64,000 nucleotides of DNA from Solidesulfovibrio alcoholivorans DSM 5433. Lineage in GTDB: Bacteria; Desulfobacterota; Desulfovibrionia; Desulfovibrionales; Desulfovibrionaceae. The notes under the pieces were generated by a model. That model searched no databases. It was not told the DNA's origin and saw nothing but the letters and a program-made list of their open reading frames with translations. A program made the position numbers and the translations under genes. The DNA lies in assembly GCF_000702665.1 (NCBI RefSeq), contig NZ_JNJA01000003.1:310001-374000 (forward strand), read 5' to 3'. Positions 1 to 52,064 of this stretch are shown piece by piece (positions within the stretch are counted from its first letter, which is position 1; every line of letters starts with the position of its first letter).

Positions 1-1181
1 ACAAGGAGCAGTTCGACCGCATCCGCGACGAGCTGCGCTCGGGCTTCCAGACCGGCGACCTGCTGACCACGCTTTTCATCTTCCGCTACCTGGAACGCAT
101 GGGCGATGCGCTGCTCAACGTCGGCGAGGCGGCCATCTTCGCCATCACCGGCGACAAGTTCAAAATCCACCAGTTTACGGCGCTCAAGGACATCCTGACC
201 GAGAGTGGCCACGAACTGCCCCTGACCGAGATCGACTTCGAGTCCATCTGGGGCACCCGCTCGGGCTGCCGCATCGGCCGGGTGGCCGACCGGGATGAAA
301 ACGGCGAGTCCGGCCGCGAGGTCATCTTCAAGGACGGGGACACGGCCAAGCTGCGCAAGGAAGCGGCCAACATCGAGCACTGGGAATGCCTCATGCCGGG
401 GCTCGCCCCGCGCGTCGAGGCCTTCCGGGAAGGCCGCAAATCGAGTTCCATGCTGATCGAACTGCTCCCCGGCCAGACCATCCAGGACATCGCCCTGGGC
501 GGCGACCTGACGCTGTTGCGCCGCGCCCTTTCCGCCCAGTGCCGCGTGGCCGGCGAGATCTGGGAAAAGACCCTCGAGCGCGCTGTCGTCCCGGCCGGGA
601 CCATGGCCCAGTTGCGCTCCCGGCTCGACGAGGTACTCACGGTCCACCCGGGCTTTCAAAGCGTGCCGCGCGCCATCGGGGACTACGCCCTGCCGAACCT
701 TAACGACGCCCTGCGCGGGGCCGAGGCCGTGGAAGCGGGCCTTGCGGCCCCCTTCACGGTGCTGTTGCACGGCGACTACAACAGCAACAACATCCTCTAC
801 GACGGCGTCAAGGACCGGATCCACTACATCGACCTGCACCGCTCCGCCCCGGGCGACCTGGCCCAGGACACGTCGGTCTTTATGGTGTCCAACTTCCGCC
901 TGCCCGTCTTCGACGCGTCCCGACGGCGCATCCTGAACGCCATCATCGCGGAGTTCTTCGAATTCGCGCGTGGCTTCGCCGCCCGAAACGGTGACGACAC
1001 CTTCGAGCTGCGCGTGGCCCTGGGGCTGGCCCGCTCGTACATCACCTCGACGCGGTTCGAACTGAGCGAGCGGTTTTCCAGGCTGATGTTTTCACGCGGC
1101 ATGTATCTGCTTGGCCGCGTGGCCGGACATGCCGGCCCCCCGGCCGCCTTCCGGTTGCCCCTGGCCGCGGCCTGTTACTGA
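1..1181 (+). CDS. PhoU-aminoglycoside phosphotransferase fusion, 5'-truncated mirror copy
   Basis: C-terminal 392 residues or so of the fusion that is complete at 48140-49771; the first full codon is at base 3. It retains the end of the PhoU helical domain and the whole phosphotransferase domain, with its HGDYNSNN catalytic loop starting at 768. The missing 5' end is a consequence of the sequence starting here, not of a mutation. Confidence 0.9.
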   Translation, partial: KEQFDRIRDELRSGFQTGDLLTTLFIFRYLERMGDALLNVGEAAIFAITGDKFKIHQFTALKDILTESGHELPLTEIDFESIWGTRSGCRIGRVADRDENGESGREVIFKDGDTAKLRKEAANIEHWECLMPGLAPRVEAFREGRKSSSMLIELLPGQTIQDIALGGDLTLLRRALSAQCRVAGEIWEKTLERAVVPAGTMAQLRSRLDEVLTVHPGFQSVPRAIGDYALPNLNDALRGAEAVEAGLAAPFTVLLHGDYNSNNILYDGVKDRIHYIDLHRSAPGDLAQDTSVFMVSNFRLPVFDASRRRILNAIIAEFFEFARGFAARNGDDTFELRVALGLARSYITSTRFELSERFSRLMFSRGMYLLGRVAGHAGPPAAFRLPLAAACY

Positions 1182-1353
1182 CGTTGCTTGACCCCGCCGC
1201 GCGCCCCGGCGCGCGGCCCATTACGGAGGCGTCGCCGGAAGGCAGCGCAAACGACCCTCTTGCCGGAGACGGCCCGCGCACAGGGCTGTCCGGGCCGGGC
1301 GCGACGCCGCCCCGGACGAGAGCCATGACGGCGAGAAGACCATGGGAGGAATC

Positions 1354-2235
1354 ATGAAGAAGATCGGCGTGGTGGGCATCCCAAAGGGATGGTCCACCCT
1401 GCGGCTCCTGGACGCCCTGGAAGCGAAGACGGGCTTTCGCCTGTGCATCGACATGGCCGAGGTCCGCCTCGACCTGGACACGGGCAAGGTGTTTTGCCAG
1501 GGGACCGACCTCACCGGCCTCGACGCGATCATCGTGAAAAAGATCGCCCCGTCCTATACCCCCGACGCCCTGGACCGCATGGAGATCCTGCGCTTCCTCC
1601 ACCAGAAGGGCGTGCCCGTCTTCTCCAGCCCGGACAGCATGCTGCGCCTGATCGACCGCTTAAGCGGCACCACGGTGCTGCGCCTGGGCGGCATCCCCAT
1701 GCCGCCCACGGTCGTGACCGAGGACATCGAGGAAGCCGCGGCCACGGTGGCGCTCTACGGCAAGGCCGTGTTCAAGCCGCTTTTTTCCTCCAAGGCCCGG
1801 GGCATGACCGTCATCGAGGACACCCCCGACGCCCGGGAGGAGATCGCCGACTACAAGGCGGCCGGCAACCAGGTCATGTACATCCAGAAGATGGTTTCCC
1901 ACGCCGGCGGCCACCTCGACCTTGGCGTGTCGTTTCTCGGCGGCAAATACCTGGCCACCTATGCCCGCCAGGGCAGCGGCGCGTCCTGGGACACCACCAC
2001 GCGCACCGGCGGCCGCTACGTGCCCCACGAGCCTTCGCAGGAAATCATCGCCCTGGCGCACAGGGCGCAGGCGCTGTTCCCGGACATGGCCTTCACCTGC
2101 GTCGACGTGGTGGAAACCCCGGAAGGCGCGGCCATCTACGAAGTCTCGGCCTTCGGCGGCTTCCGCGGCCTGCTCGACGCCTGCGGCATCGACGCCGCGA
2201 GCGCCTACGCCGACTACGTGCTGGAGAACATCTGA
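1354..2235 (+). CDS. ATP-grasp enzyme, GAK-type (mirror copy)
   Basis: Identical to the protein at 47086-47967, where it is described. The ATG at 1354 is preferred over 1342 because gggagga lies directly before it. Its TGA at 2233-2235 shares a base with the next gene's ATG. Confidence 0.85.
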   Translation: MKKIGVVGIPKGWSTLRLLDALEAKTGFRLCIDMAEVRLDLDTGKVFCQGTDLTGLDAIIVKKIAPSYTPDALDRMEILRFLHQKGVPVFSSPDSMLRLIDRLSGTTVLRLGGIPMPPTVVTEDIEEAAATVALYGKAVFKPLFSSKARGMTVIEDTPDAREEIADYKAAGNQVMYIQKMVSHAGGHLDLGVSFLGGKYLATYARQGSGASWDTTTRTGGRYVPHEPSQEIIALAHRAQALFPDMAFTCVDVVETPEGAAIYEVSAFGGFRGLLDACGIDAASAYADYVLENI

Positions 2236-3335
2236 TGCAAAACGCCCCCACCATCGCCGGGCTCATGGCCCCCATCCTCGCCGATGCGCCCATCACCCAC
2301 CGCCTGGACGTCACCTTCGGCGACGTGACCGTGGTCGTTTCCTCCAACTCCAAGGGGCTCATCGAAAAGCTCGCCAACTATTACCGCGACTTCATTGGCG
2401 GCGGCGGCGCGACCCTCATCCCGGTCACGGCCATCGAGGCCGGCCCGCCGGATCTCGAATTGCCCTTCGCCGTCAAGCAGCGCGAACCCGGCAAGACCAA
2501 GCTCAAGGAATCCTACTGCGACCTGCCCGACGGCCGCGTGGTCAAAAAGCTGCTCACGGGGCTGGTCTTCCTCTTCGGCCACGGCGACAACTACGCCGTG
2601 GGCCCGTGCATCGACAACGACAACCAGGTCGTCAACTTCATCAACAACCGCTTCATCGAGCACTGCCTCAAACGCGGCGCCCTGCTCTTCCACGCCGCGG
2701 GCGTGGCCGAAGGCGGCGCGGGGCTGGTCATCTCCGGCTTTTCCGGGGCCGGCAAGTCCACCCTCGCCCTGGAGATCATGCGCCACGGCACGGATTTCGT
2801 GAGCAACGACCGCGTGATGGTCTCCCGGGAGAGCGCGGGCCTCGTCATGACGGGCGTGGCCAAGATGCCGCGCGTCAACCCCGGCACCGTGCTCAACAAC
2901 CCGAATCTGGCCCCGGTCATGGACGCCGAGGACCGCAAGCGCTTCGCCGCCCTGCCCCAGGCCGAACTGTGGGACCTGGAACACAAGTACGACGCCTTCA
3001 TCGACGAATGCTTCGGCAAGGGCCGCTTCAAGCTGTCCTGCCCCATGGCGGGCCTGGTCGTCCTGCGCTGGAAGCGCGACGCTTCGCCCATGACGGCAAG
3101 TCGCGTGCGCCTGCGCGATCGCCGCGACCTCATGGCCGCCTTCATGAAGGACGTGGGCCTGTTCTACGAATTCGAGGACGCCTCCGAACCCTCCATCGCC
3201 AGCCAGAACGCCTACCTCGACCTGCTCGGCGACCTGCCGGTCCTGGAAATCGACGGCGGCGTGGATTTCCACAAAGCGGCCGCGGCCTGCCTGGAGTTCC
3301 TGCGCCAGGCGCGCACGGAGACGCAGCCTTCCTGA
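2235..3335 (+). CDS. HprK-related kinase, GAK-type (mirror copy)
   Basis: Identical to 45986-47086, where it is described. The 366-residue protein has Walker A GFSGAGKS at residues 168-175, encoded from 2736. Confidence 0.85.
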   Translation: MQNAPTIAGLMAPILADAPITHRLDVTFGDVTVVVSSNSKGLIEKLANYYRDFIGGGGATLIPVTAIEAGPPDLELPFAVKQREPGKTKLKESYCDLPDGRVVKKLLTGLVFLFGHGDNYAVGPCIDNDNQVVNFINNRFIEHCLKRGALLFHAAGVAEGGAGLVISGFSGAGKSTLALEIMRHGTDFVSNDRVMVSRESAGLVMTGVAKMPRVNPGTVLNNPNLAPVMDAEDRKRFAALPQAELWDLEHKYDAFIDECFGKGRFKLSCPMAGLVVLRWKRDASPMTASRVRLRDRRDLMAAFMKDVGLFYEFEDASEPSIASQNAYLDLLGDLPVLEIDGGVDFHKAAAACLEFLRQARTETQPS

Positions 3336-24603: not shown

Positions 24604-24717
24604 GCGCATCCCTCCGGGGAGGAAGAGGAGGAAGACCGGGGGAGGGAACCCCCTTTTTTGCAAAAAAGGGGGTTCCCTCCCCCGGTCTTCCTCCTCTTCC
24701 TCCCCGGAGGGATGCGC
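24604..24717. repeat. Axis of the palindrome between two divergent argH copies
   Basis: These 114 bases are fully self-complementary, centred on the TTTTTTGCAAAAAA at 24654-24667 and flanked by C5/G5 runs and a GGGAACC/GGTTCCC pair. The core resembles a C/T-rich, G/A-rich terminator hairpin. A short natural hairpin here could have made an assembler or polymerase fold back onto the opposite strand. How much of the 114 bases is natural cannot be seen from the sequence. Each half carries an argH ribosome binding site (ggaggg at 24706-24711 on +). Confidence 0.85.
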
Positions 24718-43026: not shown

Positions 43027-45804
43027 CTATGCCGGGCAGGAGGCCTGAATGCGGCGCACCACCCAGGTTTTCACTACTTGGGCCAGGCACATGTAGCAGA
43101 AGATGACCAGCGCCATGAGCCCCCAGTAGCCGGTTGGCGGCACGACCAGGCCGAAGGTGTGGGCCAGGGGCGAGAAAGGCAGCCAGACGCCGAAGGCGCA
43201 GATGAGGATGGTGGTCGCGCCGAGCGGCAGGCTGGACCAGCTTTGCAGGAAGGGGATGTTGTCCGTGCGGATCACGTGCACGATGATGGTCTGGGAGAGC
43301 AGCGACTCGATGAACCAGCCGGTCTGGAAGAGCGCCGGGTTGGTCCAGGCTCCGAAAAAGTGGATCATGATGAAAAAGGTGACGTAGTCGAAGATGGAGC
43401 TGACCGGGCCGAGGTAGAGGATGTAGCGCCGGATGTCGTCGATGCGCCAGCGCCGGGGCCTGGCCAGGATGTCCGCGTCCACGTTGTCGGTGGGGATGGC
43501 GGTCTGGGAAAAGTCGTACATGAGGTTGTTGACCAGGATCTGGATCGGCAGCATGGGCAGGAAGGGCAGGAAGGCGCTGGCCCCGAGCACGCTGAACATG
43601 TTGCCGAAGTTGGAGCTGGCCCCCATGCGGATGTACTTGGTGATGTTGAAGAAGATCTTGCGGCCTTCGAGCACGCCGTGTTCGAGCACGTGCAGGCTCT
43701 TTTCGAGCAGGATGATGTCCGCCGATTCCTTGGCCACGTCCACGGCGCTGTCCACGGAGATGCCGACGTCCGCCGCGCGCAGGGCCGGGGCGTCGTTAAT
43801 GCCGTCGCCCATGAAGCCGACCACGTGGCCCTGGTGGCGCAGCGCCGTGACGATCTGCTCCTTCTGCATCGGGTCGAGCTTGGCGAAGACGTGGCAGACG
43901 CCGACGGCCTCGTGGAGCTCCGCTTCGCTCATGGCCGCCACCTGGTCGCCGGTGATGATGTGGTCGCCGGCGTCGAAGCGCACTTCGCGGCAGATTTTCG
44001 CTGTGATGACGGCGTTGTCGCCGGTGACGATCTTGGGCTGGATGCCGTGGGCGATCATGATCGCCAGGGCGTCGGCCGCGGTGTCCTTGGGCGGGTCGAG
44101 GAAGGCCAGGTAGCCCATGAGCGTGAGGTCGCATTCGTCGGCCACGGCGAAGTCGCTGCGCGCGCCGTCCACTTCCTTGTAGGCCAGGGCCACCACGCGG
44201 AAGCCGTCGTCGTTGAGGTCGTGGACGAGCTGCTGCCGGGTGGCCAGATGATGCCCTTCGAGCGGCTTGACCACCCCGTTTTTGATGTAGGTGCGGCTTT
44301 GGGCGAACACTTCCTCGGCCGCGCCCTTGCAAATGAGGATCGCCTTGTCCGTGCGCTTGTCGCGCACGATGACGCTCAATCGTCGGCGCATGAAGTCGAA
44401 GGGGATCTCGTCGAGCAACTCGTAGTCGGCGGGGTTGATGGATTCACCCACGGCGTCGCCGGAAGCGATGACAGCCACGTCCAGGGCGTTTTTCAGGCCC
44501 GTTTGCAGCTTGCTGTTGAGGTAGGCGTATTCGAGGACCGCATGGTCTTCCTCGCCTTTGATGTCGAGGTATTTTTCCAGGATGATCTTGTCCTGGGTCA
44601 GCGTGCCGGTCTTGTCCGTGCACAGCACGTCGATGGCCCCGAAGTTCTGGATGGCGTCCAGGCGCTTGACGATGACCTTGTGCTTGGACATGGCCAGCGC
44701 CCCTTTGGAAAGGCACACCGTGACCACCATGGGCAGCATTTCCGGGGTGAGGCCCACGGCCACGGCCAGGGCGAACATGAACGCGCCCATCCAGTCGTGG
44801 GTCGTCGCGCCGTTGATGACGAAAACGAACGGCACCATGACGAGCATGAAGCGCAGCATGAGCCCGGTGAAGCTCTTGATGCCCTTGTCGAAATCGGTCT
44901 CGACGCGCTTGCCCGAGAGTTTCGCCGCGATGCCGCCGAAATAGGTCTTGGCCCCGGTAGCCGTGACCACGGCGGCGGCGGAGCCGGACACGACGTTGGT
45001 GCCCATGAAGCACATGGCCGGGTCGCCGAGGCCGGATTCGCCCTCGCGCGGGGGCTCGTCCGCCGGCCGGGCCGTCTTTTCCACGGGCAGGGCCTCGCCC
45101 GTGAGCATGGCCTGGTTGATGTGCAGGTCCTTGGCGCGCAGAAGCTGCACGTCGGCCGGCACCATGTCGCCGGCGGCGAGCAGCACGATGTCGCCCGGCA
45201 CGACCTGGGCCAGGGGAATCTCGCGCTGCTGCCCGTCGCGCAGCACCGTGGCCGTGGTGTGGACCATTTTCTTGAGCTCCGCCGCAGCGGTGTCGGCCTT
45301 GGCTTCCTGGATGACCTTGAGCACCACGCCCATGACGGCCATGCCGATGATGACCACGGCCGAGCGGACGTCGTCCGTGGCGTAGGAGATGCCGCCGAGC
45401 ACGAACAGGAGCAGCACGAGCGGGTTTTTCACGGAATCCCACAGCCGGTCCAGGAAGGTCACGGGCTTGGCCGTGACGGCCTGGTTGGGGCCGAACTGCC
45501 TGAGCCGGTCCTTGGCTTCCTGGGAGCTTAAGCCTGCAAACGCGGGTTTTTGCTCGGCCGCGGGTTCGCTGAGCCATTGCCCGGAGACGGCAACCTGCTC
45601 CCACAGGCCCTGCAGGTGCCGGTAGACGTCGTAGGCGGAAATCTTGCGCTGGTGGGCCAGGGCGTCGAAGGCGTTGGCTTTCTGGACGAAGTGTTCGAGG
45701 TTTTTGAGAAATTCGTCTTCAGGCGCAAGGCGCAATACCTCGCTTGCGGCATTGGCGTCCGCTTCCTGCGAGGTGGCCTGCATGGGGGACTTGGGGTCGG
45801 TCAT
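43027..45804 (-). CDS. Magnesium-translocating P-type ATPase, MgtA-like
   Basis: A 925-residue P3B-type ATPase that imports Mg2+ across the inner membrane at the cost of ATP. Visible motifs are the actuator TGEALPVEK, the M4 ion-binding motif LTPEMLPMVVT characteristic of MgtA/MgtB, the phosphorylation site DKTGTLTQDK with Asp397, NSKLQTGLKNALDVAV typical of this branch, and the hinge GDGINDAPALR. About ten membrane helices are expected. The N-terminus is longer than E. coli MgtA by a hydrophilic stretch (about 1-75) of unknown use. It is downstream of and on the same strand as the GAK-like kinase, 181 bases after it; hairpins in that gap make a separate promoter or leader control likely. Mg2+ control through an upstream leader is known for enterobacterial mgtA but cannot be shown here. 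Confidence 0.94.
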   Translation of the reverse strand: MTDPKSPMQATSQEADANAASEVLRLAPEDEFLKNLEHFVQKANAFDALAHQRKISAYDVYRHLQGLWEQVAVSGQWLSEPAAEQKPAFAGLSSQEAKDRLRQFGPNQAVTAKPVTFLDRLWDSVKNPLVLLLFVLGGISYATDDVRSAVVIIGMAVMGVVLKVIQEAKADTAAAELKKMVHTTATVLRDGQQREIPLAQVVPGDIVLLAAGDMVPADVQLLRAKDLHINQAMLTGEALPVEKTARPADEPPREGESGLGDPAMCFMGTNVVSGSAAAVVTATGAKTYFGGIAAKLSGKRVETDFDKGIKSFTGLMLRFMLVMVPFVFVINGATTHDWMGAFMFALAVAVGLTPEMLPMVVTVCLSKGALAMSKHKVIVKRLDAIQNFGAIDVLCTDKTGTLTQDKIILEKYLDIKGEEDHAVLEYAYLNSKLQTGLKNALDVAVIASGDAVGESINPADYELLDEIPFDFMRRRLSVIVRDKRTDKAILICKGAAEEVFAQSRTYIKNGVVKPLEGHHLATRQQLVHDLNDDGFRVVALAYKEVDGARSDFAVADECDLTLMGYLAFLDPPKDTAADALAIMIAHGIQPKIVTGDNAVITAKICREVRFDAGDHIITGDQVAAMSEAELHEAVGVCHVFAKLDPMQKEQIVTALRHQGHVVGFMGDGINDAPALRAADVGISVDSAVDVAKESADIILLEKSLHVLEHGVLEGRKIFFNITKYIRMGASSNFGNMFSVLGASAFLPFLPMLPIQILVNNLMYDFSQTAIPTDNVDADILARPRRWRIDDIRRYILYLGPVSSIFDYVTFFIMIHFFGAWTNPALFQTGWFIESLLSQTIIVHVIRTDNIPFLQSWSSLPLGATTILICAFGVWLPFSPLAHTFGLVVPPTGYWGLMALVIFCYMCLAQVVKTWVVRRIQASCPA

Positions 45805-45985: not shown

Positions 45986-47086
45986 TCAGGAAGGCTGCGT
46001 CTCCGTGCGCGCCTGGCGCAGGAACTCCAGGCAGGCCGCGGCCGCTTTGTGGAAATCCACGCCGCCGTCGATTTCCAGGACCGGCAGGTCGCCGAGCAGG
46101 TCGAGGTAGGCGTTCTGGCTGGCGATGGAGGGTTCGGAGGCGTCCTCGAATTCGTAGAACAGGCCCACGTCCTTCATGAAGGCGGCCATGAGGTCGCGGC
46201 GATCGCGCAGGCGCACGCGACTTGCCGTCATGGGCGAAGCGTCGCGCTTCCAGCGCAGGACGACCAGGCCCGCCATGGGGCAGGACAGCTTGAAGCGGCC
46301 CTTGCCGAAGCATTCGTCGATGAAGGCGTCGTACTTGTGTTCCAGGTCCCACAGTTCGGCCTGGGGCAGGGCGGCGAAGCGCTTGCGGTCCTCGGCGTCC
46401 ATGACCGGGGCCAGATTCGGGTTGTTGAGCACGGTGCCGGGGTTGACGCGCGGCATCTTGGCCACGCCCGTCATGACGAGGCCCGCGCTCTCCCGGGAGA
46501 CCATCACGCGGTCGTTGCTCACGAAATCCGTGCCGTGGCGCATGATCTCCAGGGCGAGGGTGGACTTGCCGGCCCCGGAAAAGCCGGAGATGACCAGCCC
46601 CGCGCCGCCTTCGGCCACGCCCGCGGCGTGGAAGAGCAGGGCGCCGCGTTTGAGGCAGTGCTCGATGAAGCGGTTGTTGATGAAGTTGACGACCTGGTTG
46701 TCGTTGTCGATGCACGGGCCCACGGCGTAGTTGTCGCCGTGGCCGAAGAGGAAGACCAGCCCCGTGAGCAGCTTTTTGACCACGCGGCCGTCGGGCAGGT
46801 CGCAGTAGGATTCCTTGAGCTTGGTCTTGCCGGGTTCGCGCTGCTTGACGGCGAAGGGCAATTCGAGATCCGGCGGGCCGGCCTCGATGGCCGTGACCGG
46901 GATGAGGGTCGCGCCGCCGCCGCCAATGAAGTCGCGGTAATAGTTGGCGAGCTTTTCGATGAGCCCCTTGGAGTTGGAGGAAACGACCACGGTCACGTCG
47001 CCGAAGGTGACGTCCAGGCGGTGGGTGATGGGCGCATCGGCGAGGATGGGGGCCATGAGCCCGGCGATGGTGGGGGCGTTTTGCAT
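45986..47086 (-). CDS. HprK-related kinase, GAK-type
   Basis: A 366-residue protein with a P-loop kinase domain like HPr kinase/phosphorylase but without the HprK N-terminal domain. Residues 1-150 are unlike anything I can name. The kinase part has Walker A GFSGAGKS (168-175) and DFVSNDRVMV, whose Asp192 is at the place of the HprK catalytic aspartate region. This matches the family catalogued as 'HprK-related kinase B' of the GAK system. The substrate is unknown; it may phosphorylate a serine on a protein as HprK does, or a small molecule. Its ATG shares one base with the TGA of the ATP-grasp gene (TGATG), so the two are translated in coupled fashion. It is the last gene of the operon. Family assignment rests on remembered features and would be settled by a profile search. 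Confidence 0.87.
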   Translation of the reverse strand: MQNAPTIAGLMAPILADAPITHRLDVTFGDVTVVVSSNSKGLIEKLANYYRDFIGGGGATLIPVTAIEAGPPDLELPFAVKQREPGKTKLKESYCDLPDGRVVKKLLTGLVFLFGHGDNYAVGPCIDNDNQVVNFINNRFIEHCLKRGALLFHAAGVAEGGAGLVISGFSGAGKSTLALEIMRHGTDFVSNDRVMVSRESAGLVMTGVAKMPRVNPGTVLNNPNLAPVMDAEDRKRFAALPQAELWDLEHKYDAFIDECFGKGRFKLSCPMAGLVVLRWKRDASPMTASRVRLRDRRDLMAAFMKDVGLFYEFEDASEPSIASQNAYLDLLGDLPVLEIDGGVDFHKAAAACLEFLRQARTETQPS

Positions 47087-47967
47087 CAGATGTTCTCCAG
47101 CACGTAGTCGGCGTAGGCGCTCGCGGCGTCGATGCCGCAGGCGTCGAGCAGGCCGCGGAAGCCGCCGAAGGCCGAGACTTCGTAGATGGCCGCGCCTTCC
47201 GGGGTTTCCACCACGTCGACGCAGGTGAAGGCCATGTCCGGGAACAGCGCCTGCGCCCTGTGCGCCAGGGCGATGATTTCCTGCGAAGGCTCGTGGGGCA
47301 CGTAGCGGCCGCCGGTGCGCGTGGTGGTGTCCCAGGACGCGCCGCTGCCCTGGCGGGCATAGGTGGCCAGGTATTTGCCGCCGAGAAACGACACGCCAAG
47401 GTCGAGGTGGCCGCCGGCGTGGGAAACCATCTTCTGGATGTACATGACCTGGTTGCCGGCCGCCTTGTAGTCGGCGATCTCCTCCCGGGCGTCGGGGGTG
47501 TCCTCGATGACGGTCATGCCCCGGGCCTTGGAGGAAAAAAGCGGCTTGAACACGGCCTTGCCGTAGAGCGCCACCGTGGCCGCGGCTTCCTCGATGTCCT
47601 CGGTCACGACCGTGGGCGGCATGGGGATGCCGCCCAGGCGCAGCACCGTGGTGCCGCTTAAGCGGTCGATCAGGCGCAGCATGCTGTCCGGGCTGGAGAA
47701 GACGGGCACGCCCTTCTGGTGGAGGAAGCGCAGGATCTCCATGCGGTCCAGGGCGTCGGGGGTATAGGACGGGGCGATCTTTTTCACGATGATCGCGTCG
47801 AGGCCGGTGAGGTCGGTCCCCTGGCAAAACACCTTGCCCGTGTCCAGGTCGAGGCGGACCTCGGCCATGTCGATGCACAGGCGAAAGCCCGTCTTCGCTT
47901 CCAGGGCGTCCAGGAGCCGCAGGGTGGACCATCCCTTTGGGATGCCCACCACGCCGATCTTCTTCAT
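47086..47967 (-). CDS. ATP-grasp enzyme, GAK-type
   Basis: A 293-residue, RimK-like ATP-grasp protein; such enzymes join a carboxylate to an amine or thiol through an acyl phosphate. Residues 1-90 form the N-terminal nucleotide-fold region (MKKIGVVGIPKGWSTL). The ATP-binding part follows, with VFKPLFSSKARGM as the phosphate-binding lysine/loop segment and QKMV as the adenine-contact region. Near the C-terminus, where relatives usually have a metal-binding E-x-N, this protein reads IYEVSAFGGF, so serine replaces the asparagine. Start at 47967, where gggagga precedes ATG. It is 172 bases after the PhoU-phosphotransferase gene and overlaps the kinase by one base. It matches the 'GAK system ATP-grasp' family. 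The ligation substrate is unknown. Confidence 0.87.
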   Translation of the reverse strand: MKKIGVVGIPKGWSTLRLLDALEAKTGFRLCIDMAEVRLDLDTGKVFCQGTDLTGLDAIIVKKIAPSYTPDALDRMEILRFLHQKGVPVFSSPDSMLRLIDRLSGTTVLRLGGIPMPPTVVTEDIEEAAATVALYGKAVFKPLFSSKARGMTVIEDTPDAREEIADYKAAGNQVMYIQKMVSHAGGHLDLGVSFLGGKYLATYARQGSGASWDTTTRTGGRYVPHEPSQEIIALAHRAQALFPDMAFTCVDVVETPEGAAIYEVSAFGGFRGLLDACGIDAASAYADYVLENI

Positions 47968-48139
47968 GATTCCTCCCATGGTCTTCTCGCCGTCATGGCT
48001 CTCGTCCGGGGCGGCGTCGCGCCCGGCCCGGACAGCCCTGTGCGCGGGCCGTCTCCGGCAAGAGGGTCGTTTGCGCTGCCTTCCGGCGACGCCTCCGTAA
48101 TGGGCCGCGCGCCGGGGCGCGCGGCGGGGTCAAGCAACG

Positions 48140-49771
48140 TCAGTAACAGGCCGCGGCCAGGGGCAACCGGAAGGCGGCCGGGGGGCCGGCATGTCCGGCC
48201 ACGCGGCCAAGCAGATACATGCCGCGTGAAAACATCAGCCTGGAAAACCGCTCGCTCAGTTCGAACCGCGTCGAGGTGATGTACGAGCGGGCCAGCCCCA
48301 GGGCCACGCGCAGCTCGAAGGTGTCGTCACCGTTTCGGGCGGCGAAGCCACGCGCGAATTCGAAGAACTCCGCGATGATGGCGTTCAGGATGCGCCGTCG
48401 GGACGCGTCGAAGACGGGCAGGCGGAAGTTGGACACCATAAAGACCGACGTGTCCTGGGCCAGGTCGCCCGGGGCGGAGCGGTGCAGGTCGATGTAGTGG
48501 ATCCGGTCCTTGACGCCGTCGTAGAGGATGTTGTTGCTGTTGTAGTCGCCGTGCAACAGCACCGTGAAGGGGGCCGCAAGGCCCGCTTCCACGGCCTCGG
48601 CCCCGCGCAGGGCGTCGTTAAGGTTCGGCAGGGCGTAGTCCCCGATGGCGCGCGGCACGCTTTGAAAGCCCGGGTGGACCGTGAGTACCTCGTCGAGCCG
48701 GGAGCGCAACTGGGCCATGGTCCCGGCCGGGACGACAGCGCGCTCGAGGGTCTTTTCCCAGATCTCGCCGGCCACGCGGCACTGGGCGGAAAGGGCGCGG
48801 CGCAACAGCGTCAGGTCGCCGCCCAGGGCGATGTCCTGGATGGTCTGGCCGGGGAGCAGTTCGATCAGCATGGAACTCGATTTGCGGCCTTCCCGGAAGG
48901 CCTCGACGCGCGGGGCGAGCCCCGGCATGAGGCATTCCCAGTGCTCGATGTTGGCCGCTTCCTTGCGCAGCTTGGCCGTGTCCCCGTCCTTGAAGATGAC
49001 CTCGCGGCCGGACTCGCCGTTTTCATCCCGGTCGGCCACCCGGCCGATGCGGCAGCCCGAGCGGGTGCCCCAGATGGACTCGAAGTCGATCTCGGTCAGG
49101 GGCAGTTCGTGGCCACTCTCGGTCAGGATGTCCTTGAGCGCCGTAAACTGGTGGATTTTGAACTTGTCGCCGGTGATGGCGAAGATGGCCGCCTCGCCGA
49201 CGTTGAGCAGCGCATCGCCCATGCGTTCCAGGTAGCGGAAGATGAAAAGCGTGGTCAGCAGGTCGCCGGTCTGGAAGCCCGAGCGCAGCTCGTCGCGGAT
49301 GCGGTCGAACTGCTCCTTGTAAAGCCGGTCCAGGTGCAGTTCGCAGCGGCAGATCTTGAGCGCCGCCGACATGTCGCGTTCGAGCACGGCCTTGGGCGTC
49401 CATTCGAGGGCCTTTTTGACCTCCGCGAAAAACGGCTTGTACGCGTAGCGCTGGATGCACTCGGGTTCGTCGTAGTGGCGGGTCTGGCGCACCACGTTGA
49501 CCACATGGTCGCCCACGCGTTCGAGGTTGTTGCCGATGATGTTGAGCGCGCGCACCCGGGCCGTTTCCTGGGCGGTGAGCCGCTCGGCCCCGAGCAGTGT
49601 GGCGAAGCAGCCGTTTTCGATGACGCTCTTGAGGTTGTCGATATAGTCGTCGCGGGCCTCGATCTTGGCGATGGCCCGTTCGTCGTGCTTTTCGATGACG
49701 GCCATGGCCGCCTCGACCTGCCGTTCGATTTCGACGAGCAGGAACTGGAAGTTTGTTACGATCTCATGCAT
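48140..49771 (-). CDS. PhoU domain-aminoglycoside phosphotransferase fusion
   Basis: A 543-residue fusion. Residues about 1-215 are two PhoU-like three-helix bundles (ERVGDHVVNVV and ERMGDALLNVGE are the repeated E-R-x-G-D motifs), as in the regulator of phosphate uptake. Residues about 245-543 are an APH/choline-kinase-type phosphotransferase. Its catalytic loop HGDYNSNN spans 407-414, with Asp409 and Asn414, and IDLHRS supplies the metal-binding Asp428. APH-fold enzymes phosphorylate small hydroxyl compounds; antibiotic resistance should not be assumed here. The ATG at 49771 is preferred over 49780 because an AGGGG lies at the right distance. It overlaps the amphi-Trp gene by 8 bases, so they are one operon. 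The window's left copy lacks the first 151 residues or so. Confidence 0.88.
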   Translation of the reverse strand: MHEIVTNFQFLLVEIERQVEAAMAVIEKHDERAIAKIEARDDYIDNLKSVIENGCFATLLGAERLTAQETARVRALNIIGNNLERVGDHVVNVVRQTRHYDEPECIQRYAYKPFFAEVKKALEWTPKAVLERDMSAALKICRCELHLDRLYKEQFDRIRDELRSGFQTGDLLTTLFIFRYLERMGDALLNVGEAAIFAITGDKFKIHQFTALKDILTESGHELPLTEIDFESIWGTRSGCRIGRVADRDENGESGREVIFKDGDTAKLRKEAANIEHWECLMPGLAPRVEAFREGRKSSSMLIELLPGQTIQDIALGGDLTLLRRALSAQCRVAGEIWEKTLERAVVPAGTMAQLRSRLDEVLTVHPGFQSVPRAIGDYALPNLNDALRGAEAVEAGLAAPFTVLLHGDYNSNNILYDGVKDRIHYIDLHRSAPGDLAQDTSVFMVSNFRLPVFDASRRRILNAIIAEFFEFARGFAARNGDDTFELRVALGLARSYITSTRFELSERFSRLMFSRGMYLLGRVAGHAGPPAAFRLPLAAACY

Positions 49772-50045
49772 CGCCCGCATCCCCTGGCGCGATGAGCAGG
49801 GGCGCGTCGATCAACTCGCATTCCCGCTCCTTCCAGCGGAAGGTCAGCTTGAGCTTGCGGTCCTCGCCCTTCTGCTTGCCTTCGATGGTGACGGCGATGA
49901 GCCCTTTGGGCAGGAGCTCCAGCACCTGTTCGCCCTGGCGCAGGGTCACGGTGCCGTGCGCGAAACCGTCACGCACGGCCTCGAGGTAGGCGGCGATGGC
50001 GTCGCGTTCCTGCAGGCCGTCGTATTTGAACAGCTTGTTCGTCAC
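49764..50045 (-). CDS. Amphi-Trp domain protein, first gene of GAK-like operon
   Basis: A 93-residue protein starting with GTG behind a GGAGG. The second half has alternating hydrophobic strands (QVLELLPKGLIAVTIEGK, RKLKLTFRW) ending in tryptophan, the pattern of the 'amphi-Trp domain' family found with GAK-type kinases and ATP-grasp proteins. No catalytic residues, signal peptide or membrane segment are visible, so it may be a small binding or carrier protein. Its end overlaps the PhoU-phosphotransferase fusion by 8 bases. It lies just outside the palindrome, so it occurs once. It is divergent from the Nif11-like gene, with a 248-base shared promoter region in which I could not fix a promoter. 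Confidence 0.78.
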   Translation of the reverse strand: MTNKLFKYDGLQERDAIAAYLEAVRDGFAHGTVTLRQGEQVLELLPKGLIAVTIEGKQKGEDRKLKLTFRWKERECELIDAPLLIAPGDAGDA

Positions 50046-50293
50046 ATTGCCTCCTTGGGTTCCGGACGCGGAAGGGGCCGCTTCACGGACGCGAAGGGGT
50101 CACTAGCACCCGATTATGAAGATACGGTGAAGGCCGGGACGCAAATTGGACGCGGCGCATGTTTCGTCCGTGCGCACGGCCCGCCGCACAAGCGGCCGCA
50201 ACACCGAATTGCCATCGTTTGTTGACGCTTCCTCCATACCCGGGGAGGATAACCCGGGAAAACGCCTGCATGTCGCCGACGGAGGATGGACGT

Positions 50294-50476
50294 ATGGGTC
50301 AGGAAGAGATCGACCGTTTCCTCGAATACCTGCGGGAAAACAAGGACAGGCTGCTCATGGTCGGCGGCATGCCGCTGCCGGAGCTCATCGAGTACGCCGC
50401 AAGCCTCGGCTTCCACTTCACGGCTGAGGAGCTCAAGGCGAGGCAGGCCCTCGTCCACCTCGTCGAAGGCACGTAA
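50294..50476 (+). CDS. Nif11-like small protein
   Basis: A 60-residue protein resembling the Nif11 domain: an N-terminal helix MGQEEIDRFLEYLRENKDRL, then LIEYAASLGFHFTAEELKA, which matches the conserved 'A-x-x-x-G-Y/F-x-F-t-x-E-E-L' pattern. In some bacteria Nif11 domains are leader peptides of ribosomally made, modified peptides; others stand alone with unknown roles. Here the protein ends soon after the domain (HLVEGT) with no cysteine- or serine-rich core, and no modifying enzyme is near, so a peptide-product role is not supported. The ATG at 50294 has ggagg 8 bases ahead; 50270 is an alternative. It lies between the divergent GAK-like operon and the Pit transporter. Confidence 0.7.
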   Translation: MGQEEIDRFLEYLRENKDRLLMVGGMPLPELIEYAASLGFHFTAEELKARQALVHLVEGT

Positions 50477-50618
50477 GGCGCATCGGTCCGCGGCGCGAAG
50501 CGCCCCGGAGCCACGCCCTTCCGACACGGCGGCCGCCCGGGACCGGACGGCCCGGACCAGCCCCTGCGGCGTCGCTGCGCGCGCCGTCGCTCGGACGCCC
50601 TTTCCCACGGAGTACGGC

Positions 50619-52064
50619 ATGGATTTCCTTTCCGGCCTCGACGGCCATACCCTTTTTCTCCTACTGGCCTCGCTCGGCATCGCTCTCTCTTTCGAATTCG
50701 TCAACGGCTTTCACGATACGGCCAACGCCGTGGCCACGGTCATCTACACCAAGTCCCTGCGCGCCCGCACAGCGGTCGTGCTGTCCGGGGTTTGCAACTT
50801 TCTCGGCGTGCATCTGGGCGGCATCGCCGTGGCCTATTCCATCGTGCACCTGCTGCCCGTGGACCTGCTCGTCTCGGTCAACACCAACCTGGGCCTGGCC
50901 ATGGTCTTTTCGCTGCTCGTCTCGGCCATCCTCTGGAACTTCGGCACCTGGTACCTGGGCCTGCCCGCCTCGAGCTCCCATACGCTCATCGGCGCGATCC
51001 TCGGCGTGGGACTGGCCAACGCCGTGCGCGAGGGCCTGCCCGCCGGCTCCGGCATCAACTGGCACAAGGCCTTGGAAGTGGGGCTGTCGCTTCTCATTTC
51101 CCCGGTCATGGGCTTTGTCCTTGCCGGCGGGCTGTTGCTGCTGTTGCAGCGCCTGCTCAAAAATGCGGCCCTGCATTCCCCGCCCGTCGGCGACGCGCCG
51201 CCGCCCGCGGCCATGCGCGCGGCGCTGATCGTCTCCGGGCTCGGCGTGTCCCTGGCGCACGGCTCCAACGACGGCCAGAAGGGCGTGGGGCTCATCATGC
51301 TCATTTTGATCGGCATCCTGCCCGGGGTTTACGCCCTGGACGTGGATACGCCCAAGGCGGACGTGCTGGCCGTGCGGGAGGTGGCGGCCCGGTTCACGGA
51401 CTATTTCGACGCGCACAGGCTGGAGATCGAAAAGGCCTACGCGAGCGGTGCGCTCATCGAGACCCCGAAGGCCGGCCCGGCTCCCCACTGCGACGTGCGC
51501 GGGGCGGTGCCGGCGGCGGAAGCGATCCAGGTGCGCCTGGCCCAGGCCGACACCATCGCCGCGTTGCCCGAACACGAGCGCTTTGCCATCCGCACGGACA
51601 TCCTGTGCCTGGACGACGCTTCCCGGCAAATGCAGGACATCGCGCCCGAAGCGGACCGGGAAATGATCGGGCGCTGGCGGGAGGTGCTGCGCCGGCCCAC
51701 GGAATACGCGCCGGACTGGGTGCTCCTGGCCGTCTCCATGGCCCTTGGCGTCGGCACCATGGTCGGCTGGAAGCGCATCGTCGTGACCATCGGCGAAAAG
51801 ATCGGCAAGACCAAGCTGTCCTATTCCCAGGGGGCCGCGGCACAGGTGGTGGCCATGACCACCATCGGCCTGGCCGACGGCCTGGGGCTGCCGGTCTCCA
51901 CCACGCACGTGCTTTCCTCGGGCGTGGCCGGCGCCATGGCCGCCGGGAAAAGCGGATTGCAGATGCGCACGCTGCGCTCCATCGCCATGGCCTGGGTCTT
52001 CACCCTGCCTGCGGCCATGTTCCTGGGAGCGGGGCTCTTTTTTCTCTTCGCGTTGCTGGCCTGA
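50619..52064 (+). CDS. Low-affinity phosphate transporter, Pit family
   Basis: A 481-residue inorganic phosphate (metal-phosphate) carrier of the PiT/PitA type. Both signature halves are present: FEFVNGFHDTANAVATVIYT near residue 25 and AHGSNDGQKGVGLIM near 218, close to the E. coli PitA wording. About ten membrane helices are split by a hydrophilic loop (about 245-370) as in PitA. Pit proteins typically carry a divalent metal-phosphate complex, so the nearby Mg2+ pump and PhoU-domain protein are noteworthy. The start at 50619 follows ggag at 6 bases. It is 142 bases after the Nif11-like gene and convergent with the hybrid kinase, 32 bases away. Confidence 0.93.
   Translation: MDFLSGLDGHTLFLLLASLGIALSFEFVNGFHDTANAVATVIYTKSLRARTAVVLSGVCNFLGVHLGGIAVAYSIVHLLPVDLLVSVNTNLGLAMVFSLLVSAILWNFGTWYLGLPASSSHTLIGAILGVGLANAVREGLPAGSGINWHKALEVGLSLLISPVMGFVLAGGLLLLLQRLLKNAALHSPPVGDAPPPAAMRAALIVSGLGVSLAHGSNDGQKGVGLIMLILIGILPGVYALDVDTPKADVLAVREVAARFTDYFDAHRLEIEKAYASGALIETPKAGPAPHCDVRGAVPAAEAIQVRLAQADTIAALPEHERFAIRTDILCLDDASRQMQDIAPEADREMIGRWREVLRRPTEYAPDWVLLAVSMALGVGTMVGWKRIVVTIGEKIGKTKLSYSQGAAAQVVAMTTIGLADGLGLPVSTTHVLSSGVAGAMAAGKSGLQMRTLRSIAMAWVFTLPAAMFLGAGLFFLFALLA

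Follow-up and report, generated by a model that had tools for sequence, protein, structure and literature searches.

What does the GAK system do for the bacteria that carry it? The question is raised by four genes at positions 45986-50045 of a 64,000-nucleotide stretch of the Solidesulfovibrio alcoholivorans DSM 5433 genome (hereafter the window), all on the minus strand, which encode a small amphi-Trp protein, a fusion of PhoU domains with an APH-fold kinase (PhoU-APH), an ATP-grasp protein and an HprK-related kinase B (HprK_B). These four genes are the core of GAK, a set named in NCBIfam (TIGR04354-TIGR04358) yet functionally blank: the literature that we searched yielded no paper on the system and no expression, biochemical or genetic data. 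Here we find that GAK is tied to phosphate across the family and that the polyphosphate kinases PPK1 and PPK2 are absent from all GAK-bearing genomes of a class-wide sample. These two patterns give the system a physiological address in phosphate storage or signalling, and the question becomes testable in sulfate reducers with genetic tools; an excerpt of one paper mentions targeted mutagenesis in D. gigas, D. fructosivorans and D. magneticus (PMC6210102). The reading that we consider most likely, and hold tentatively, is that GAK carries out the synthesis and turnover of a phosphorylated small molecule, which would stand in for polyphosphate as a phosphorus store or as a status signal.

A sequence-only reading of the window had placed four same-strand genes at these coordinates and assigned them to GAK, and both claims are borne out. 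Three of the four proteins exceed the curated NCBIfam cut-offs for GAK (amphi-Trp, TIGR04354; HprK_B, TIGR04355; ATP-grasp, TIGR04356), and the GAK genes travel together in 58 loci of relatives. The PhoU-APH protein matched no GAK model in NCBIfam; its Pfam PhoU and APH matches are above cut-off.

Phosphate genes, Pho boxes and polyphosphate kinases

We counted genes of six Pho families (PitA, PhoH, PstS, PhoU, PstC and PstA; similarity or visual inspection was the basis for naming the seeds of the last three) around GAK loci of the class Desulfovibrionia. Such genes are present in 12 of 28 GAK stretches but in none of 20 control stretches, 20 kb each (Fisher p=4.4e-4). The 28 stretches counted are L068-L095, from 32 obtained in all; the controls have the same size and most come from the same genomes.

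The upstream regions of GAK operons point in the same direction. A de novo motif from the pstS upstream regions of 30 GAK genomes, CCGTaAC-N4-CtGTAAC, agrees with the PhoB box of D. vulgaris, described in an excerpt of the source as a repeat of 6 bp, (c/t)GT(n)AC, spaced by 4 bp and tested by electrophoretic mobility shift assay (PMC3333781). When the motif was scored on the 250 bp upstream of GAK operons, 13 of 46 operons passed the 95th percentile of the controls, against 8 of 148 control genes (p=7.8e-5), and all 13 positive operons outscore every control gene. Restricting the comparison to the class leaves a predicted Pho box at 10 of 35 operons (p=2.8e-4). One of the 13 belongs to the genome studied here (L062). 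The 46 exclude eight of 54 operon starts (L038, L050, L057, L058, L059, L070, L076 and L094), for which the upstream walk stopped at PhoU-APH or ATP-grasp. When periods of 7 to 15 bp were compared, 11 bp was the strongest for Pho half-sites. A Pho box built on the E. coli half-site performed less well (9 of 46 operons beyond the 95th percentile of the controls, p=0.015 by rank test; 9 of 54 operon starts at p<=0.05 in a shuffling test) and was replaced by the pstS-trained motif. The sequence-only reading had linked the window genes to phosphate limitation, and this link stands for the family, in both Pho genes and Pho boxes; it does not extend to a Pho box at the window copy.

Polyphosphate kinases belong to other protein families than GAK, and the two never share a genome in our survey of 199 Desulfovibrionia genomes. 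None of the 99 GAK-positive genomes yielded PPK1, as against 35 of 100 GAK-negative genomes (Fisher p=1.6e-12, uncorrected for phylogeny); for PPK2 the counts are 0 of 99 and 19 of 100. An earlier look at 52 genomes had given 0 of 32 and 13 of 20. That PPK1 and PPK2 are missing from every one of the 99 GAK genomes suggests that the GAK product takes polyphosphate's place, so that GAK and the two kinases would share the same physiological role, a phosphorus reserve.

Folds and partners of the GAK proteins

The PhoU-APH protein retains an invariant HGDxNxxN motif and a later Asp in 21 aligned rows. Its second PhoU ExxxD motif (E185, D189) is kept in at least 95% of these rows, and the first keeps the Glu only. 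In the ATP-grasp protein D255 and E267 are kept (open reading frame numbering). All 25 aligned members show EVS at the ExN motif, where the LysX/RimK-type structures aligned to the protein have EVN. The Asn of this motif is a metal ligand in RimK/LysX-type ligases.

HprK_B has the P-loop GFSGAGKST and carries SNDR where HprK has ADDR/ADDN, one Asp of the DD pair being kept. The HprK equivalog model TIGR00679 scores it at 31.1 bits, far below the cut-off of 240. In the predicted structure (pLDDT 92.3), residues 3-363 align with phosphoenolpyruvate carboxykinase (PEPCK; Z 16.8, root-mean-square deviation 4.6, 305 residues), including the N-terminal half, whereas among the matches listed HprK/P aligns with the C-terminal part only, through the shared P-loop domain (Z 14.8, 141 residues). 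Because the PEPCK fold aligns over the full length, the fold favours, but does not prove, a small-molecule phosphotransferase rather than an HPr-type protein kinase.

The amphi-Trp protein is modeled as one helix and four strands (pLDDT 79.8). It has no clear structural relative: the best structural match is GnsA at Z 2.9 and the best PDB sequence match has E 0.54. Ten aligned amphi-Trp proteins share the invariant columns M1, F6, G31, P46 and W71 and have no invariant Ser, Thr, His or Tyr, which weakens the case for amphi-Trp as a phosphoprotein.

Known or putative hydrolases recur beside these proteins. A PHP-like protein of 386 residues is found in 40 of the 58 loci; its aligned rows show the invariant order HxH, QHN, E, H, HP, E..N, DxH, which recalls PHP domains. 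Seven loci from gammaproteobacteria, Polyangia and Myxococcales (L051, L055-L060) gave no PHP-like protein and have instead a histidine phosphatase together with a calcineurin-type phosphatase. The PHP-like protein and this pair occur together in 0 of 58 loci. Four gammaproteobacterial loci also have a SixA-NUDIX protein. The replacement of one by the other suggests that phosphate removal belongs to GAK function, with the PHP-like label resting on motif order.

What GAK may make

On the reading that we tentatively prefer, the PhoU domain would sense phosphate or metal state and control the attached APH kinase, and the ATP-grasp protein and the PEPCK-like HprK_B would add or exchange phosphoryl groups. 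Together the three ATP-using folds would assemble a small phosphorylated compound, to be unloaded by a phosphoesterase. In Desulfovibrionia this would be the PHP-like protein; in the gammaproteobacterial and myxobacterial relatives it would be the histidine phosphatase and the calcineurin-type phosphatase, joined by SixA-NUDIX in the four loci that have it. The core in this genus usually sits between a phosphate importer and an Mg2+ importer. We infer the substrate, the directions of the reactions and the roles of the amphi-Trp and PHP-like proteins.

Several observations weigh against this reading. The six Pho families behind the 12 of 28 stretches were picked after being seen near other GAK loci. 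No significant Pho box precedes the window operon, where the top site scores 6.2, a value that 17% of the 148 controls also reach. The D. gigas operon (L076), which lies outside the 46, reaches only 5.8 upstream of its first gene, XXXCH. Spacing the Pho half-sites at 13 bp also gives an enrichment (10 of 46 operons, p=0.002), weaker and unexplained. Among the 35 PPK1 genomes, 27 come from a single genus (g3), so the p value for PPK1 is inflated by relatedness; at the level of 45 genera the GAK/PPK1 p is only 0.008, with one overlap, a genus (g133) in which GAK and PPK1 are in different species. A further 65 of the 199 genomes have neither GAK nor PPK1, and GAK is therefore not a required substitute for PPK. 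HprK_B was not found in 6 of the 58 loci, and the 386-residue protein gave no significant match as a PHP protein in Pfam, NCBIfam, PDB sequences or hhalign. Finally, the nearest named relatives of the ATP-grasp protein, MptN and RimK, are amino-acid ligases and not kinases.

With such relatives the ATP-grasp protein may act as a ligase, and the sequence-only reading had modeled a 2-phospho-lactyl-like or peptide product. An MptN/RimK-like ligase would in this case make a peptide or cofactor conjugate, F420-like and with a CofD-type phospho-lactyl step, which the kinases would then modify. The ATP-grasp protein is homologous over its whole length to the MptN, RimK and LysX ligases, with MptN its second-best NCBIfam model (129.3 bits, below the NF040720 equivalog cut-off of 350), and CofD_GAK is a frequent partner, found in 35 of 58 loci. 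However, the motif is EVS and not EVN in all 25 members, 23 of 58 loci lack CofD, whose own second-best NCBIfam model is YvcK, and a conjugate leaves both the phosphate linkage and the PPK pattern unexplained. We regard such a product as unlikely, although it rates marginally above the other alternatives, and neither the 2-phospho-lactyl-like nor the peptide form proposed from the window is supported. A protein-phosphorylation switch, in which HprK_B phosphorylates amphi-Trp as HprK does HPr and PhoU-APH tunes the switch to phosphate state, draws on the homology of the HprK_B C-terminal domain to HprK and on the presence of amphi-Trp in 54 of 58 loci. HPr is also about the same size as amphi-Trp. 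Against this, amphi-Trp lacks an invariant phosphorylatable residue in the alignment described above, HprK_B aligns over its full length with a small-molecule phosphotransferase fold, and 6 of 58 loci have amphi-Trp and PhoU-APH without HprK_B in the stretch. We consider the switch doubtful.

Phosphate-starved cells may also remodel their membranes, and GAK could be an accessory to the replacement of phospholipids by glycolipids. In an excerpt of a study of phosphate-limited D. alaskensis, phospholipids are swapped for glyco- and ornithine lipids (PMC5193443). A GT4 glycosyltransferase is encoded in eight fetched stretches, one of them (L061) from the genome studied here, and its best NCBIfam matches, all below cut-off, include glycolipid synthases. 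Yet GT4 is present in a minority of loci and may merely share the Pho regulon, and the family matches of the four window proteins include no lipid enzymes. A membrane-remodelling role therefore seems very improbable.

Returning to a phosphorylated small molecule, one specific product can be named. The electron-dense granules of D. gigas reportedly consist of glucose pentakis(diphosphate), as Hensgens et al. are said to have described in 1996; the compound was not found in the literature searched. An older view is represented by Jones and Chambers (1975), cited in an excerpt of PMC9239181 for polyphosphate formation by D. gigas. The genome assigned to D. gigas (G178) carries a row of genes for XXXCH, PHP-like, amphi-Trp, PhoU-APH, ATP-grasp, HprK_B and CofD that adjoins a PhoU-like gene, and neither PPK1 nor PPK2 was found in it. 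GAK might make and spend glucose pentakis(diphosphate), or another hyper-phosphorylated sugar like it, as a phosphorus store that carries pyrophosphate and would replace polyphosphate. Loading of phosphates and diphosphates would fall to the three ATP-using transferase folds and the release of both to the PHP-like, histidine phosphatase, calcineurin-type or NUDIX hydrolases; PitA would supply phosphate and MgtA the Mg2+ counter-ion. Because the substrate is only proposed and the nearest relatives of the ATP-grasp protein are ligases, we rate this product as a long shot. If true, it would explain phosphorus-rich granules in bacteria without PPK1 or PPK2 and would provide a prokaryotic counterpart to inositol pyrophosphates. 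In the same D. gigas locus, a strong Pho-box-like site scoring 11.9 was noticed post hoc within the operon, in the gap 66 nt before the ATP-grasp open reading frame.

Inositol phosphates were rejected as the scaffold: a search for myo-inositol phosphate synthase (PF07994, E<=1e-10) was negative in all 52 class genomes examined (32 GAK-positive and 20 GAK-negative) and positive in 3 of 14 control genomes. This result rejects only inositol made by myo-inositol phosphate synthase. D. alaskensis may offer a second test case. In an excerpt of a transposon study under phosphate limitation, Pst and PhoR genes are named, polyphosphate granules are seen with 4',6-diamidino-2-phenylindole, and no GAK gene is named (PMC5193443). 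These granules would be informative if the organism has GAK without PPK, and the pattern fits if PPK is present. One nitrate-resistance paper came up as an ATP-grasp match; the excerpt concerns a pyruvate phosphate dikinase and not GAK, and it was set aside.

Gene content of GAK loci and of the window

Of 148 genomes of the phylum, an identical set of 12 carries the ATP-grasp (over cut-off) and PhoU-APH (E<=1e-20) genes. HprK_B is over cut-off in 12 as well, namely the ATP-grasp set minus G118 plus G078, whose ATP-grasp is fragmentary and sits on a contig of 4 kb. For CofD_GAK the over-cut-off genomes number 11, including three (G076, G109 and G138) with no over-cut-off ATP-grasp, and for XXXCH 9. 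In two of those three (G076 and G138; stretches L066 and L067) the CofD_GAK is divergent, at 431 and 452 bits, and a PitA homologue lies in the stretch. Within Desulfovibrionia the ATP-grasp occurs in 28 of the 45 genera sampled (the 99 genomes above), and GAK extends to gammaproteobacteria, Polyangia and Phycisphaerae.

The 58 loci were chosen by their ATP-grasp, and some are cut by contig ends; duplicates, fragments and stretches fetched for another gene were left out (L044, L047, L048, L061-L063 and L065-L067). By tblastn they contain amphi-Trp (54), PhoU-APH (54), HprK_B (52), PHP-like (40), CofD (35), XXXCH (31), histidine phosphatase (7), calcineurin-type phosphatase (7) and SixA-NUDIX (4). 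Relatives keep a constant gene order, which in the class usually runs XXXCH, PHP-like, amphi-Trp, PhoU-APH, ATP-grasp, HprK_B, CofD and a second amphi-Trp. Two frequent members, PhoU-APH and the PHP-like protein, have no GAK model. In two genomes of one genus (L037 and L047) a phosphoglucomutase/phosphomannomutase gene follows the second amphi-Trp; as it adjoins GAK in these two loci only, it was not counted as support for a GAK partner.

The window differs from the usual arrangement in that its core is split from CofD and XXXCH, which are sited at other loci. The sequence-only reading had noted both as absent; they are missing from the window operon but present elsewhere in the genome. CofD_GAK (TIGR04357) is encoded at C3:12678-13781 (548.4 bits) beside a second HprK_B (contig C3, 12.7-15.0 kb), and this stretch, L061, also has PhoU. 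XXXCH (TIGR04358) is encoded on contigs C12 (110.8 bits) and C1 (93.1 bits). On C12 it stands with the PHP-like protein, amphi-Trp and a second PhoU-APH, and the L062 stretch combines these four with PstS, PstC/A-like and PhoH-like genes.

Six loci have the four-gene core only: the window, L068, L069, L150 and L151 from its own genus, and L049, a Solidesulfovibrio record whose ATP-grasp is 96% identical to that of the window. PitA and MgtA each lie beside the core in five of the six, flanking it there, and neither was found at L151.

The coordinates in the window are collected below. The three joins of the operon were described earlier as overlapping or close. Two do overlap, amphi-Trp with PhoU-APH by 17 or 8 nt depending on the start chosen and ATP-grasp with HprK_B by 1 nt (TGATG), and the third is a gap of about 160 nt. 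The ATP-grasp may start at 47967, where an ATG has a better ribosome site upstream.

Features of the window, with strand and the family matches on which each assignment is based
Feature	Coordinates	Strand	Basis and remarks
amphi-Trp protein, 93 aa	49764..50045	-	Operon gene 1, GTG start; TIGR04354 67.2 bits (cut-off 31); PF20068 34.8 bits (cut-off 27)
PhoU domains + APH-fold kinase fusion, 546 aa	48140..49780	-	PF01895 68.3 bits; PF01636 27.9 bits
GAK ATP-grasp	47086..47979	-	TIGR04356 429.1 bits (cut-off 300)
HprK-related kinase B, 366 aa	45986..47086	-	TIGR04355 560 bits (cut-off 200)
MgtA-type Mg2+ P-type ATPase	43027..45804	-	Directly downstream of the operon; TIGR01524 1093 bits
PitA-type phosphate transporter	50613..52064	+	Divergent from the operon; NF033774 498.8 bits, below the cut-off of 800 of this exception model
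Mirrored second copy, identical	1..3335	+	3' part (most) of PhoU-APH; ATP-grasp 1342-2235; HprK_B 2235-3335

The mirrored copy arises from a palindrome. Positions 1-49320 of the window are their own reverse complement, at 100% and with no spacer, around a centre at 24660/24661. On contig C3 the palindrome spans 165477-503844 and, in the stretches compared, reaches the contig end. The mirror extends beyond the window with 0 mismatches in 59.9 kb compared of the 169-kb right arm, the contig stretch from 375 to 484 kb being left out of the comparison. Quality ratings for the genome are 100% completeness and 7.78% contamination, and the 10 other congeneric genomes in the class sample each carry a single GAK ATP-grasp. 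Because of this contamination and the single ATP-grasp in each of the others, the palindrome is probably a folded-back assembly artefact. The second copy in the window should not count as a duplicated GAK system.

Three further observations concern the neighbourhood of GAK. The GT4 glycosyltransferase is a protein of about 800 residues with a PHP-looking N-terminus (L061, L075, L079, L088, L092, L094, L096 and L040, two copies being cut by the stretch end), and its best matches in control stretches are at 1e-18. Outside the genus, an MgtA homologue is also present in the GAK stretches L050, L054 and L079. Between the window operon and PitA, a small open reading frame at 50258-50476 on the plus strand has a sub-threshold match to Nif11 (21.2 bits, cut-off 23.8).

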